Source: Halorubrum sp. GN11_10-6_MGM (GTDB lineage Archaea > Halobacteriota > Halobacteria > Halobacteriales > Haloferacaceae). Taken from it: DNA of 64,000 nt. The position numbers and the translations under genes were made by a program. The stretch is from assembly GCF_005435165.1 (NCBI RefSeq), contig NZ_SGUC01000001.1:1-64000 (forward strand), written 5' to 3'. Below, piece by piece: positions 55,878 through 62,320 of the stretch (the first letter of the stretch is position 1; each line of letters opens with the position of its first letter). The notes below the pieces were generated by a model, which was not told the origin of the DNA, made no database searches, and saw only the letters and a list, made by a program, of their open reading frames with translations.

Positions 55878-55944
55878 GGCCGCTCGGCCGGCGATCTGAG
55901 TCGCGATCGGCCGCCGCGTCGGCGTCATCGCCCCCGGCGTGGGG

Positions 55945-55950
55945 TATATA
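55945..55950 (+). promoter_or_regulatory. TATA box for the DUF460 gene
   Basis: TATATA lies 25-30 bases before GTG 55975, supporting a leaderless GTG start rather than the in-frame GTG at 55939. Confidence 0.5.
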
Positions 55951-55974
55951 CGCGGCAACGACTTACCTCGGTGC

Positions 55975-58038
55975 GTGACAACCCGGACCATCCGCGCCCG
56001 CGACCGGCCGGTGTTCGGCGTCGACGTCCACAGCGGCGACGTCCGCGGCGACAGTCCCTCCTACGCGCTCGTGATACTCGACCCGGTCGACGAGGACGAC
56101 CCGGACGCCCCGGACGCCGACGGCCCGATGGCCCGAGTGACCCGCGACGTCGTCTCCTTCCGGAAGCTCTGCCGCCTGATCGACGACCGCGAACCGCTGT
56201 ACGTCGCCACCGACAACGCCTACGAGCTGGCGGCGGACAAGGGGGAGCTCGTGGGGTTCCTCCGGTCGCTACCCGACGGCACCCGACTCGTTCAGGTAAC
56301 CGGCGCGGAGCGGCCGGAGCCGCTCTCCAGAGTCGCCTCCAGACACGGGATTCCGTACGGAAAGAAACCGATGAAGGAGGCCGAGGCGGCCGCCCGGCTC
56401 GCGGCCGCGAACGTCGGCCACGAGGTGACCGCGTTCACCGACGAGACGCGGGTAAAGGTGTCCCGAGGGCGCTCGACCGGAAAGGGCGGGTGGAGTCAGG
56501 ACCGGTACACGCGCCGCATCCACGGCAACGTCAGGAAGCGGACGCGGCAGGTCCAGTCGAAGCTGAAGGAGGCGAACCTCGACTTCGAGCGCGACGTGAC
56601 CGAGAAGTACGGCGGCTACGCGAACGCGACGTTCACGGTCGCGGCCCGCCCGGAGGAGATCCCCGTCTCGAACTCGCGGGCGGGCGACGTACGCGTCGAG
56701 GTCGAGCGCGAGCGTCGCGACGGGATCGAGTACGAGCCGTTGGTCAAGCGCCGCGACCGCGTCATCGTCGGCATCGACCCCGGCACCACCACCGCGGCCG
56801 CGGTCGTCGGCCTCGACGGCACCGTCCACGCGTTGTACTCCTCGCGGACCGGCGACACCGCCGAGGTGACGGAGTGGATCGTCGAGCAGGGCCGGCCGAT
56901 CATCGTCGCCGCCGACGTCGAGCCGATGCCGGAGACGGTCGAGAAGTTCCGGCGCTCGTTCGACGCCGCCGGCTGGCGCCCTACCACGGACCTCCCGGTC
57001 GACGAGAAGCTCCACCGGACCCGCGAGGCGAGCTACGCCAACGACCACGAGCGCGACGCGCTCGCGGCGGCACTGTACGCCTACGACGACCACGAGGACC
57101 AGTTCGAGCGGATCGCGGCGAAGACCCCGCCGCGGCTCGACCGCGAGGCGGTGATCGCCGGCGTCGTCGCGGGCGGGTCGTCGGTCGAGGCCGTCGTCGA
57201 CGACCTGAGCGAGGACGACGGCGACGGTGGCGGCGGGAGCGGCGACGGCGACGCGGACGGGACGGATCCCACGGAGCCGGAGCGCACCGAGGAGGAGGAG
57301 ACGATCCGGCGACTCCGCGAGCGCGTCGACCGGCTGGAGTCGCACGCCGAGTCGCTCGAAGACGACCTCGACGAGCGCGACGACCGAATCGACGAGCTGG
57401 AGGGGGAGTTAGAGGAGTCGAAACGCGAGGAGCGCATCGAGGCGCGCACGCGACGGGCGGTGTCGCGGCTGGAGCGCGAGACGGACCGGCTGGAGCGCGA
57501 GCGCGACGAGGCGCAGGAGCGCGTCGAAGACCTCGAACGGAAGGTGGAGACGCTAAAGGAGCTGTGGCGGCTCGACCACTCGAACTTCGGCGACGTCGCG
57601 GAGGGGCGAGGGCTCGTGAGCGTGAAGGTGGTCGAGCAGTTCACGCTCGACGCGCTCGACGCCGCCGACGATGCGTACGGGCTCGTCGCGGGGGACGTGG
57701 TGTTCCTCCGGGACGCGTCCGGGGCCGGCCGCCGGACCGCGGAGCGGCTCGCCGAGGCGGAGCCGCGGGCGGTGATACGCGGCGAGGGCAACCTCTCGGA
57801 CGTCGCCGACGCGGTGCTGTTCGAGCGGGGGGTTCCGGTGGTGGCCGCCGACGCCGTCCCGGTCCGCGAGGTCGACGAGCTGGCGGTCGCGAGCGAGGAG
57901 GACCTCGCCGCCGCCGTCGACGACTGGGAGGAGCGCGCCGAACAGCGCCGGCGCGACGAGAAGGCCGAGCGGATCGACCGGATCATCTCCGAACACCGGG
58001 CGGGGCGGACGCTGCCCGAGACCGAGGAGACCGACTGA
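55975..58038 (+). CDS. DUF460 protein with two RNase H-like regions and a coiled coil
   Basis: 687 residues, GTG start. Residues 11-130 begin FGVDVHSGD, and a second RNase H-like segment begins VIVGIDPGTTTAAAVVGLDG near 263-282 with Asp268. Both have the first-strand Asp of RuvC/YqgF-type folds. NDHERDALAAALYAYDD near 350 supplies a late Asp/Glu cluster. A Gly/Asp linker leads to a long Arg/Glu coiled coil (about 430-530) and a C-terminal domain. The family is archaeal and predicted to act on nucleic acid, but its role is unproven. Confidence 0.82.
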   Translation: MTTRTIRARDRPVFGVDVHSGDVRGDSPSYALVILDPVDEDDPDAPDADGPMARVTRDVVSFRKLCRLIDDREPLYVATDNAYELAADKGELVGFLRSLPDGTRLVQVTGAERPEPLSRVASRHGIPYGKKPMKEAEAAARLAAANVGHEVTAFTDETRVKVSRGRSTGKGGWSQDRYTRRIHGNVRKRTRQVQSKLKEANLDFERDVTEKYGGYANATFTVAARPEEIPVSNSRAGDVRVEVERERRDGIEYEPLVKRRDRVIVGIDPGTTTAAAVVGLDGTVHALYSSRTGDTAEVTEWIVEQGRPIIVAADVEPMPETVEKFRRSFDAAGWRPTTDLPVDEKLHRTREASYANDHERDALAAALYAYDDHEDQFERIAAKTPPRLDREAVIAGVVAGGSSVEAVVDDLSEDDGDGGGGSGDGDADGTDPTEPERTEEEETIRRLRERVDRLESHAESLEDDLDERDDRIDELEGELEESKREERIEARTRRAVSRLERETDRLERERDEAQERVEDLERKVETLKELWRLDHSNFGDVAEGRGLVSVKVVEQFTLDALDAADDAYGLVAGDVVFLRDASGAGRRTAERLAEAEPRAVIRGEGNLSDVADAVLFERGVPVVAADAVPVREVDELAVASEEDLAAAVDDWEERAEQRRRDEKAERIDRIISEHRAGRTLPETEETD

Positions 58039-58131: not shown

Positions 58132-59118
58132 ATGGACGCTCACGAGCTGATCACCCGGAACGCGGCCGAGGTGGTCACCGAGGCGGAGATCGAGGCGCTG
58201 GCCGACGACCCCGAGGGCAAGCGGGCGTACGTCGGCTACGAGCCCTCGGGCGTGCTCCACATCGGTCACATGCTCACCGCGAACAAGCTCATCGACCTCC
58301 AAGAGGCCGGCTTCGAGGTGACGGTCCTGTTGGCCGACGTACACGCCTACCTCAACGACAAGGGGTCGTTCGAGGAGATCCGCCACACCGCCGAACGGAT
58401 GCGCGACCAGTTCATCGCCTACGGGCTCGACGAGTCGAACACGCAGTTCGTCCTCGGCTCCGACTTCCAGCTCGACGACGACTACACCCTCGACCTCCAC
58501 GCCCTCGAACTGGAGACCACCCTCGCCCGCGCCGAGCGCGCGATGGCCGAGATCACGTCGGGGGACTCGGTGAAGGTGTCGCAGGCCGTCTACCCGCTGA
58601 TGCAGGCGCTCGACATCCCGTACCTCGGCGTCGACCTCGCGGTCGGCGGGATGGAGCAGCGCAAGGTCCACATGCTCGCGCGCGACGTGCTCCCGAGCAT
58701 CGACCGCGAGCCGCCGACGAGCCTTCACACGCCGCTCATCGCCGATCTCGCGACCGGCCGCGGGAAGATGTCCTCCAGCGAGGGCGTCACGATCTCGATG
58801 GAGGACTCCCGCGAGGAGATCGAGTCGAAGGTGAACAACGCCTACTGCCCGCCGACGGCCGACCCCGAGCCGACCGACGACGGCGAGTCGCGCGAGAACC
58901 CCGTCCTTCAGGTGTTCGAGTACCACGTGTTCCCGCGGTTCGAGTCGATCGTCGTCGAGCGCCCCGAGGAGTACGGCGGGGATCTGGAGTACGACACCTA
59001 CGACGAGCTGGAGGCCGAGCTGGAGGCCGGCGAGCTTCACCCCGCGGACGCGAAGGGCGCGCTCGCGGAGTACCTCGACCGCCTCATCGCGCCGGGGCGC
59101 CAGCAGCTCGCGGAGTAG
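58132..59118 (+). CDS. tyrS: Tyrosyl-tRNA synthetase
   Basis: 328 residues, the short archaeal class Ic form. The HIGH motif is VLHIGHM at 41-47, and the KMSKS equivalent is KMSSSEG near 207. The tyrosine pocket includes AYVGYEPSG near 32-40 and QALDIPYLGVDLAVGG. It charges tRNA-Tyr in the cytoplasm. It lacks the S4 domain of bacterial enzymes. Confidence 0.94.
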   Translation: MDAHELITRNAAEVVTEAEIEALADDPEGKRAYVGYEPSGVLHIGHMLTANKLIDLQEAGFEVTVLLADVHAYLNDKGSFEEIRHTAERMRDQFIAYGLDESNTQFVLGSDFQLDDDYTLDLHALELETTLARAERAMAEITSGDSVKVSQAVYPLMQALDIPYLGVDLAVGGMEQRKVHMLARDVLPSIDREPPTSLHTPLIADLATGRGKMSSSEGVTISMEDSREEIESKVNNAYCPPTADPEPTDDGESRENPVLQVFEYHVFPRFESIVVERPEEYGGDLEYDTYDELEAELEAGELHPADAKGALAEYLDRLIAPGRQQLAE

Positions 59119-59127
59119 TCGCCGGTA

Positions 59128-59922
59128 TCAGACGTTCGAATCCGGCCGGCCCGTCGTTCCGGTCTCCGCGTTTTCTCTCACCGCGTGCCCGTCGAGCGGA
59201 CAGGTCCCGTCCAGACAGCCGAGCCCCGCCGCCGTCTCGAAGAGGGGGAGCCCGCAGTCGCACTCGCCGACGACGACGCCGGCCGGGAACGAGAAGGTGG
59301 TCTCGCAGTCGGGGTCGTTCTCGCAGCCGAGGTACACCCGGCCGGGCGCGAAGCGGACCCGCAGGTCGCCCTCGCAGTCCGGGCAGTCCCAAATCCCGTC
59401 GAATCGCTCGCTGACGGCGTCTTCCATCGGGTCGCAGGCAGGGTCGAGACAGAGGTGAAACGGCTCGCCGCGCTCGACGCGGATCTTCGGGAGGCCGCAG
59501 TCGTCGCAGGTCGCGTCCGTGACGCTCGCGCCCGCCGGCAGTCCCCAGCGCGTCTCGCAGTCGAGACACACCACGTCGCCCCGCGAGCGAACGAGCGATC
59601 CGCCGTCCTCGGGGCAGGTCCCGACGGGGACGCCCGCCTCGGTGACGGGGAGCGCGCGGCTCGCGGTCGCCTCCGTGGCGACCACCCGGAGCTGCCGGGA
59701 GCCGTCGCGGGCGGTGACGGTGAACCCGTCGCCGTCGCCCTCGACGACGACGCTCTCGGGGCGGGTGAGCCACGCGACGGGCTGGTAGCCGTCGGCGTCG
59801 TGGACGAGCGTCGTGTCGTCGGGTTTTATCAGGACGACGACGCGCCCGCGGTGGGTGCGGGTGCGATCGCCGCGGTCGATTACCTCGCAGTCGCCGGCCA
59901 GCACGCGGAGTCGTTGCGGCAT
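59128..59922 (-). CDS. NucS N-domain (DUF91-like) fused to C4 zinc ribbons
   Basis: 264 residues. Residues 1-90 look like the N-terminal DNA-binding/dimerisation half of NucS/EndoMS (RLRVLAGDCEVIDRGDR..RVVVLIKPDDTTLVHDADGYQPVAW). In place of the nuclease domain come four or five cysteine pairs: CPEDGG..CLDC, CDDCG..CLDPAC, CPDCEG..CENDPDC, CDCG..CLDGTC. These resemble topoisomerase I C-terminal zinc fingers. It would thus bind DNA without cutting it. It lies tail-on to tyrS and beside a repair-type helicase. The domain match is from memory of the family. Confidence 0.7.
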   Translation of the reverse strand: MPQRLRVLAGDCEVIDRGDRTRTHRGRVVVLIKPDDTTLVHDADGYQPVAWLTRPESVVVEGDGDGFTVTARDGSRQLRVVATEATASRALPVTEAGVPVGTCPEDGGSLVRSRGDVVCLDCETRWGLPAGASVTDATCDDCGLPKIRVERGEPFHLCLDPACDPMEDAVSERFDGIWDCPDCEGDLRVRFAPGRVYLGCENDPDCETTFSFPAGVVVGECDCGLPLFETAAGLGCLDGTCPLDGHAVRENAETGTTGRPDSNV

Positions 59923-59977
59923 ACGACGGCTGGCCGCGGCATCGGTGTTAAGCGGTCGTCACGGAGGTTTATCACCG

Positions 59978-62320
59978 TTAGTCGACGCGAACCGTTCGCG
60001 TCGCCGTGACCGGCAGCAGCGGGAGGTCGGGGAAGACGACCGCGACAGTGAACTCCAGCTCGTCGGCGTCGGGTGGACCGAACACGCCGACCGGGACGGC
60101 CGTCTCGCCGTCGAGGTACGTCGTCGTCGCGGTCATCTCCACGTCGTTGACGGTGACGCGGATGCCGGCACGAGCGCTCCCGGAGACGGCCGCGACGGCG
60201 ACCTCGCACAGCTCGTTCTCGCCGACTGCGATGGCGTCCGGGAACTCCCCCCAGTCGACGTCGATCCGTGGACAGTCGCGCGCGGCCTCGACGATCCGCT
60301 CCGCGACGGAGCCGCTCATGCCGGCGCGTTCGAGTTCGTCCGCGCCGGCGTCGACGACGTCGGCGGGCGAGGTGAGACCGGCGTCCGCGAGGCGCTCGGC
60401 GCGGCCGGAGCCGACCCCCTCGATCGCCGTGAGCGCGACGGCTTCGCGGGAGACGCCGTGTTCGACGCGGGCCTCGACGCGGCGCGCGAGGTTGGCGGCG
60501 CGGGGACCGGCGAAACGGTCGAGGAACTCCGCGAGCGCGGCGAGCAGGCGGAGCGCGTTCTGCCGGATCACCCACGCGTCCGACCGGAGGTCCGAGGGGA
60601 TCGAGTCGGCCATCCCGGCGAGCAGGATGGCGAACACCTTGCGATGGCCGTCTTCGAGGTCGGTGTCGCGGCCGTCGAGGATCCGGTCGATCGCGTCCGA
60701 CTCGGCCGAGCGCGCGGAGACGGAGTCGAACTCGCCGGCGGCCGCGACCGTCTCCAACACCCCGTCGACCGTGAGCGTCTCGCGGTCCGCGAGCCGTCGG
60801 AAGCGCCGCGCGGTGTCCAGGCGGAGGTAGTACTTCGAGGCGAGGCGCCCGAGCGCGGTCGGCTCGACCGCGAGGTCGTCGCCGGCCGCGACGAACCCGT
60901 CGTCGACGAGCGAGTCCAAGTGGTCGCGCACGCGGTCGCGCAGCGTCGGGAAGTCGTACTGGTCGGGCTTCGACCGTGCTCGGACGTAGTAGAAGGTCGT
61001 CTCCAGCCACGCCATCACGTCTTCGAGCCCGCGGATCGTTCCCATCGCGATCTCGGCGTTGAGGTGGGACTTGAGGTCGGCCGCGAGCCGCGACTCGATC
61101 GCCTTGCCCTCGCGGAGCAGTTTCCGGTACTTGTCCGCGTCCGCGCGGTCGCAGACGACCCAGCCGTATCCCACGTCGTCGTACTCCGGCCGACCGGCGC
61201 GTCCGAGCATCTGGAGCACGTCCAGCGGCGAGATGTCGGTCTCGCCCTCCAGCGGGTCGTGGTACTTCGTGTCGCGGATGACGACGCAGCGCGCGGGGAG
61301 GTTCACCCCCCACGCGAGCGTCGACGTCGAGAAGAGGAACTTGATCTTCCCCTGCTTGAACCACTCCTCGACGCGGTCGCGGTCCTCCTTTCCGAGTCCG
61401 GCGTGGTGGAAGCCGACGCCGTCGGTGACCGACTGTCTGAGGGTGTCGTTGGTCAGTTCCTTCGCCTCGTTGTGGAAGTCGTAGTCGCCCCGCGAGTCGA
61501 TCGGGATGTCGCGCTCCGTGATCTCGTCGCGCGCCTTCTTGGCGGCCTGAACCGTGTCCTGCCGGGAGGAGACGAAGACGAGGGCCTGCCCGTCCTCGCG
61601 GACGTGCGGCTCGGCCAGATCGAGCGCGCGGTAGAGCCGGCGGTACTTGTCGGCGAACGCGTTCGAGCCGTGCGAGTACGTCTTCACGCCGGTCTCCAGA
61701 TCGACGGGGCGGTACTCGTCGCCGAAGGCGTACGTCGTCTCCGCGGGCGCGTCGAGCCACTCCGCGACGTCGTCGATGTTCGGCATCGTCGCCGACAGCG
61801 CCACGACGCGGGGGTCCTGGAGCCGGCGGAGCCGCGAGACCGTGACCTCCAGCACCGCGCCGCGCTTCTCGGAGTCGAGCAGGTGAACCTCGTCGATGAC
61901 GACGCAGTCCACGTCGGTGATAAAGGAGTAGCGCGCGGAGTCGTGCTTCCGGGTCGCGCTGTCGGCCTTCTCCGGCGTCGTCACCAGCACGTCGGCGCGC
62001 TCGGCGCGCCGCGGGTTCAGGTCGCGTTCCCCGGAGACGACGTAGACGGAGTAGCCCAGCTCCTCGAACCGCTCCCACTCGCTCTCCTTCTCGTTGGTGA
62101 GCGCGCGCAGCGGCGCGACGAACAGGGCGGTGCCGCCCTCCGAGAGCGTCTTACAGATGGCGAGTTCGGCGAGCGCGGTCTTCCCCGAGGCGGTCGGCGC
62201 CGACGCGACGACGTTGTGGTCGGTCTCCAGAATTCCCGGCAGCGCCTCGCGTTGCATCCGATTGAACTCGTCGAACCCGAAGGCGTCGGCGAACTCCGGC
62301 ACCGCGTCCGCGACCTTCAC
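59978..62320 (-). CDS. Ski2/Brr2-type DEAD/DEAH-box helicase
   Basis: 780 residues, GTG start. Motif I is APTASGKT at 41-48, motif II is DEVH at 143-146, and motif III is SATMPN. Motifs IV-VI include FLFSTSTLAWGVNLPAR and MLGRAGRPEYDD. A winged helix and ratchet follow, then a helix-hairpin-helix (IEGVGSGRAERLADAGL near 640) and a C-terminal beta domain like the Sec63/FN3 part of Brr2 and Mer3. It may unwind DNA or RNA. It is related to, but distinct from, Hel308. The GTG is used because MKVADAVPEFADAFGF opens the family. Confidence 0.88.
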   Translation of the reverse strand: MKVADAVPEFADAFGFDEFNRMQREALPGILETDHNVVASAPTASGKTALAELAICKTLSEGGTALFVAPLRALTNEKESEWERFEELGYSVYVVSGERDLNPRRAERADVLVTTPEKADSATRKHDSARYSFITDVDCVVIDEVHLLDSEKRGAVLEVTVSRLRRLQDPRVVALSATMPNIDDVAEWLDAPAETTYAFGDEYRPVDLETGVKTYSHGSNAFADKYRRLYRALDLAEPHVREDGQALVFVSSRQDTVQAAKKARDEITERDIPIDSRGDYDFHNEAKELTNDTLRQSVTDGVGFHHAGLGKEDRDRVEEWFKQGKIKFLFSTSTLAWGVNLPARCVVIRDTKYHDPLEGETDISPLDVLQMLGRAGRPEYDDVGYGWVVCDRADADKYRKLLREGKAIESRLAADLKSHLNAEIAMGTIRGLEDVMAWLETTFYYVRARSKPDQYDFPTLRDRVRDHLDSLVDDGFVAAGDDLAVEPTALGRLASKYYLRLDTARRFRRLADRETLTVDGVLETVAAAGEFDSVSARSAESDAIDRILDGRDTDLEDGHRKVFAILLAGMADSIPSDLRSDAWVIRQNALRLLAALAEFLDRFAGPRAANLARRVEARVEHGVSREAVALTAIEGVGSGRAERLADAGLTSPADVVDAGADELERAGMSGSVAERIVEAARDCPRIDVDWGEFPDAIAVGENELCEVAVAAVSGSARAGIRVTVNDVEMTATTTYLDGETAVPVGVFGPPDADELEFTVAVVFPDLPLLPVTATRTVRVD

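Follow-up and report, generated by a model that had tools for sequence, protein, structure and literature searches.

A haloarchaeal NucS_N and zinc-ribbon protein as a putative accessory subunit of a Brr2/ASCC3-type helicase

What does a protein do that carries the recognition domain of the mismatch endonuclease NucS but lacks its nuclease? Such a protein, P0001, is encoded on the minus strand of the window, a 64,000-nucleotide stretch of Halorubrum sp. GN11_10-6_MGM (contig NZ_SGUC01000001.1), where its open reading frame runs from an ATG at 59922 to 59128, exactly as the earlier note had placed it. The gene and its surroundings are laid out as follows.

59128..59922, minus strand: P0001, NucS_N and zinc-ribbon protein, 264 aa (open reading frame, translation, Pfam, orthologues)
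59644..59922, minus strand: NucS_N domain, aa 1–93 (Pfam PF21003, predicted fold)
59548..59625, minus strand: zinc ribbon 1, degenerate, aa 100–125, with C103, D106, C119 and C122 (orthologue column counts)
59428..59517, minus strand: zinc ribbon 2, aa 136–165, with C139, C142, C158 and C163 (cysteines invariant, 46/46)
59287..59391, minus strand: zinc ribbon 3, topoisomerase C4 type, aa 178–212, with C180, C183, C200 and C206 (Pfam PF01396, invariant cysteines)
59194..59268, minus strand: zinc ribbon 4, aa 219–243, with C221, C223, C236 and C241 (invariant cysteines)
59923..59977, minus strand: spacer of 55 nt from helicase stop to P0001 start (sequence)
59978..62320, minus strand: Ski2-like helicase, Brr2/ASCC3-type single cassette (Pfam, motifs, fold)
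59981..60268, minus strand: immunoglobulin-like (IG) domain at the C-terminus of the helicase, lacking in Hel308 (all-beta, pLDDT ~93)

Domains and distribution of P0001

Residues 3–85 of P0001 matched the Pfam family NucS_N (PF21003) with 32.1 bits, above the curated cut-off of 23.9. In an AlphaFold model made from 46 orthologues (pLDDT 88.5), aa 1–93 aligned with Pyrococcus abyssi NucS (2vld) at Z 12.3 (rmsd 1.7, 88 residues) and with Thermococcus kodakarensis EndoMS (5gkj/5gke) at Z ~11.9, while unrelated folds reached Z 6.2 at most. Single-sequence phmmer was too weak to connect P0001 with NucS in the PDB; the family profile did so significantly (E 2.2e-4). The earlier note's reading of the N-terminal half as the DNA-binding half of NucS is thus borne out, the predicted N-domain having the NucS fold, and so is its statement that the nuclease is absent: no Pfam match to NucS_C was found in P0001 at E ≤ 10, aa 100–243 being zinc ribbons.

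The mismatch-contact residues of T. kodakarensis EndoMS are Y41, N76 and W77 (PMC7343888). The equivalent of W77 is W51 in P0001 and is tryptophan in 46/46 sequences of the family; that of N76 is mostly Ala (A/E/S), and that of Y41 is mostly Phe (F/E/D/L), with Asp in P0001 of the window. Because these last two positions have changed, the mismatch pocket is not kept as such in the family. A general K-P-D / H / W core is retained, and it is plausible that P0001 binds DNA in general.

The topoisomerase-like zinc knuckles described after the N-domain proved to be four ribbons. Ribbon 1 is degenerate in the window protein (CPED) and missing from some relatives; in each of ribbons 2–4 all four cysteines are invariant across 46/46 sequences, by column counts. 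Ribbon 3 resembles the C4 ribbons of topoisomerase I, matching Zn_ribbon_Top1 (PF01396) at the cut-off (31.9 bits against 32), and a topoisomerase was the next-best match of the family profile in the PDB after NucS, but P0001 has no topoisomerase domains.

The closest named orthologues of P0001 are 90–91% identical to it. Orthologues were found in 285 of 292 Halobacteria genomes, a count made without four marginal matches (E 8.9e-6 to 8.3e-4) and, like our other counts across genomes and loci, ignores kinship. P0001 is therefore a core haloarchaeal gene and not a chance open reading frame. In two genomes (G030:C5, L155; G056:C1, L156) it is matched in two pieces with residues missing between them. 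Neither relatives in viral contigs nor a viral fold match at E ≤ 0.001 was found, and a viral origin was rejected on these grounds. A defence-system assignment was also rejected, because PADLOC recognised the neighbour only as a generic helicase and matched P0001 no better than by chance.

A neighbouring helicase and its linkage with P0001

P0001 is co-directional with the helicase upstream, across the 55-nt gap, and convergent with a tRNA synthetase (W/Y type) at 58132–59118 on the plus strand. A TTAA motif seen by eye ~27 nt ahead of the P0001 start (minus strand, within 59923–59977) is a candidate leaderless promoter for P0001 itself. Beside the synthetase lies a coiled-coil DUF460 protein of unknown function (55939–58038, plus strand; PF04312, 155 bits); both genes are close to P0001 in most Halorubrum-group loci and not elsewhere.

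The helicase matched the Pfam families DEAD, Helicase_C, SNRNP200_wHTH and Sec63, and its motifs GKT, DEVH, SAT, FHHAGL and QMLGRAGRP are conserved among 34 orthologues. It falls below the curated Hel308 models (PRK02362, 401 of 887 bits; helicase_Hel308, 264 of 1200), while the second copy that this genome encodes clears PRK02362 (1164.8 of 887 bits). In a tree, the neighbour and the fused helicases described below form one clade (100/100), apart from the canonical Hel308 of the same genomes. The scores and the separate clade led us to reject its identity with Hel308. In a further tree, which has no true outgroup and in which long branches meet, a 100/100 branch puts human cassettes on the side of the paralogue; two putative ASH-Ski2 proteins tried as a root fell inside the Hel308 side. 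A 1275-aa version of the helicase in one genome (G001) was set aside, its N-terminal extension resembling out-of-frame read-through in high-GC DNA.

Against single cassettes, the neighbour scored 282 and 248 bits with human ASCC3, 263 and 261 with Brr2 and 253 with archaeal Hel308; canonical Hel308 favours Hel308 structures, 493 to 229. The model of the neighbour (pLDDT 82.8) contains one cassette of 780 aa. Brr2 cassettes (Z up to 37) and ASCC3 (Z 29.9) align with it over 1–780, whereas Hel308 aligns over 1–684 only, without the IG domain. The RecA1-RecA2-WH-HB-HLH-IG cassette, with ASCC3 as the reference for domain order (PMC10076317), is complete. The earlier note had P0001 sharing its strand with a repair-type helicase; the shared strand stands, but the helicase is a Brr2/ASCC3-type paralogue and not a Hel308 orthologue.

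Over all loci, the helicase lies upstream of P0001 and co-directional with it in 81 of 109; in about a quarter the two genes are apart, and intervening genes are frequent. Outside Halorubrum the helicase was in the fetched flank of 56 of 70 loci, upstream and on the same strand in 55. None of the other window neighbours searched for (tRNA synthetase, DUF460, M50, TRAM and MCM) was found at these P0001 loci (0/70); as a positive control, the same five queries did match in Halorubrum-group loci. The three helicase-less genomes among the 292 all lack P0001, which is present in 285 of the 289 helicase-bearing ones (Fisher 8.5e-6, kinship ignored). P0001 is missing from four haloarchaea whose helicase carries no additional domain at its C-terminus, so P0001 is dispensable for the helicase. 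The link is strong, not obligatory.

Fused relatives in two other families

A survey of 325 genomes of the phylum placed the helicase paralogue only in Halobacteria (58 genomes) and in two further families, f12 (6) and f19 (2); the helicase-bearing lineages are those that carry NucS_N or ribbon modules. The second type of NucS_N, to which P0001 belongs, was confined in the same set to Halobacteria and f19.

The f12 genomes, of ~2 Mb, encode helicases of the same clade as the neighbour of P0001 (L145, L148; 969 and 979 aa) that end in P0001-type ribbons, 39% identical to those of P0001 across 145 residues (L145, E 2e-25). These differ from the haloarchaeal arrangement in having the ribbons fused to the motor and no NucS_N. 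In f19, the 997-aa protein L152:2745-5738, again of this clade, combines helicase, NucS_N (aa 812–887; 29.4 bits, cut-off 23.9) and HRDC (71.3 bits), and matched the P0001 family at 95.4% probability in a profile comparison; L153 (1013 aa) is a second such case. Both share the NucS_N subfamily of P0001, which ends in R/Q where NucS has PPG, but are single chains with HRDC in place of the zinc ribbons. Each half of P0001 is thus found elsewhere as a C-terminal extension of the same motor.

Stand-alone NucS_N and HRDC proteins (L154:3213-4055 and L151:2880-3689, both plus strand), which may be remnants of fusions or a separate unit, are encoded in two f19 genomes (G299, G326) that lack the helicase paralogue. 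Since the module is kept there without the helicase, it can work elsewhere.

Proposed role and comparison with known systems

Judged from sequence, P0001 is probably a separately encoded accessory subunit of the upstream Brr2/ASCC3-type helicase that engages nucleic acid, and a split-off accessory is the most economical account; both of its halves are fused to the same motor elsewhere. Together, the zinc ribbons and NucS_N would hold nucleic acid, or load it, where it enters or leaves the helicase, which could thereby act on chosen structures; the nucleic acid is probably DNA in single-stranded or branched form. We infer a physical complex of the two proteins and, within it, a docking module and a nucleic-acid-binding module; the substrate (DNA, not RNA) and the pathway are read in the same way.

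The earlier note had instead suggested a mismatch or branched-DNA sensor, or a competitor of NucS. That P0001 is a sensor working with or against NucS, binding its substrates without cutting them, strikes us as rather improbable: the NucS_N fold and the invariant W77 equivalent would suit such a role, as would the complete NucS encoded in the same genome and in most relatives, but the changes of N76 to Ala and, mostly, of Y41 to Phe weaken the idea of mismatch sensing, and the conserved partner of P0001 is a helicase. A search for co-occurrence with full NucS also went against it, NucS_C being missing from 24 of the 292 Halobacteria genomes and P0001 kept in 20 of those 24. P0001 is therefore not dependent on NucS, and the competitor role was rejected on the same count, the genomic partner being the helicase. 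As side observations on NucS itself, many genomes of three Halobacteria families (f2, f6 and f8) have two NucS_C matches, which suggests two full NucS-like paralogues, and a 374-aa protein (L002:1399-2523, plus strand) combines a nuclease domain weakly resembling NucS_C (24.6 bits) with a C-terminal part of unrelated sequence, and another small nuclease-like open reading frame follows it.

It is unlikely, if less so, that P0001 serves the helicase on RNA or ribosomes and not on DNA, as TRIP4 does with ASCC3/Slh1 in ribosome quality control. The cassette is equally near ASCC3, Slh1, Brr2 and Hel308, and RNA is also a substrate of ASCC3-TRIP4; yet NucS_N and topoisomerase-type ribbons are associated with DNA, and the fused f19 relatives carry HRDC, a domain typical of DNA helicases. 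Hardly credible is a decaying NucS relative without function, for which one could cite the loss of the nuclease domain and the split or truncated copies in two genomes; the conservation of P0001 contradicts it, both in its retention by 285 of 292 genomes and in the invariant KPD, H, GYQP and WLTR residues and 12 cysteines.

An accessory role with the helicase gives a testable function to a protein present in nearly every haloarchaeon, and would mean that the recognition domain of NucS has been put to a second use away from mismatch repair, that of a helicase module. The helicase, near Hel308 by sequence models yet with the complete Brr2/ASCC3 cassette, bears on the origin of the eukaryotic splicing and ribosome-rescue helicases. 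In titles, abstracts and term matches of open-licence papers on NucS with zinc ribbons, haloarchaeal Hel308 paralogues, DUF91 and archaeal Brr2, we came across no account of P0001 itself or of a partnership between it and the helicase. In a Haloferax review, Hel308 (HVO_0014) and NucS (HVO_0486) are each listed once, and term matches in that review yielded no further copy. With its established genetics, Haloferax volcanii offers a direct way to answer the question of P0001.

With NucS/EndoMS (PF21003 and PF01939), P0001 shares the N-terminal PH-like DNA-binding domain and its K-P-D...H...P-x-x-W core; it differs in lacking the NucS_C nuclease domain (D165, E179 and K181 in NucS), in its added zinc ribbons and in having a helicase as genomic partner. 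The helicase resembles Brr2/ASCC3 over its full length, C-terminal IG domain included, but has one cassette where ASCC3 has two in tandem. TRIP4 (ASC-1) binds ASCC3 through its zinc-finger domain, positions its nucleic-acid-binding domain near the exit and stimulates unwinding with ATPase activity unchanged (PMC10076317). In layout, P0001 would be a putative counterpart, a separate chain with zinc-binding and nucleic-acid-binding domains beside a Ski2-like cassette helicase; TRIP4 has ASCH where P0001 has NucS_N, no Pfam match to ASCH or a TRIP4-type zinc finger was found in P0001, and homology is neither shown nor claimed. We put forward more tentatively, as a possibility that may well prove wrong, that haloarchaea have a single-cassette counterpart of Brr2/ASCC3 with a dedicated NucS_N/zinc-ribbon loader, parallel to ASCC3-TRIP4, with shuffling of the accessory between a fused and a split state across three archaeal lineages. 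By this analogy, P0001 with its helicase and TRIP4 with ASCC3 are comparable in layout, not in descent.
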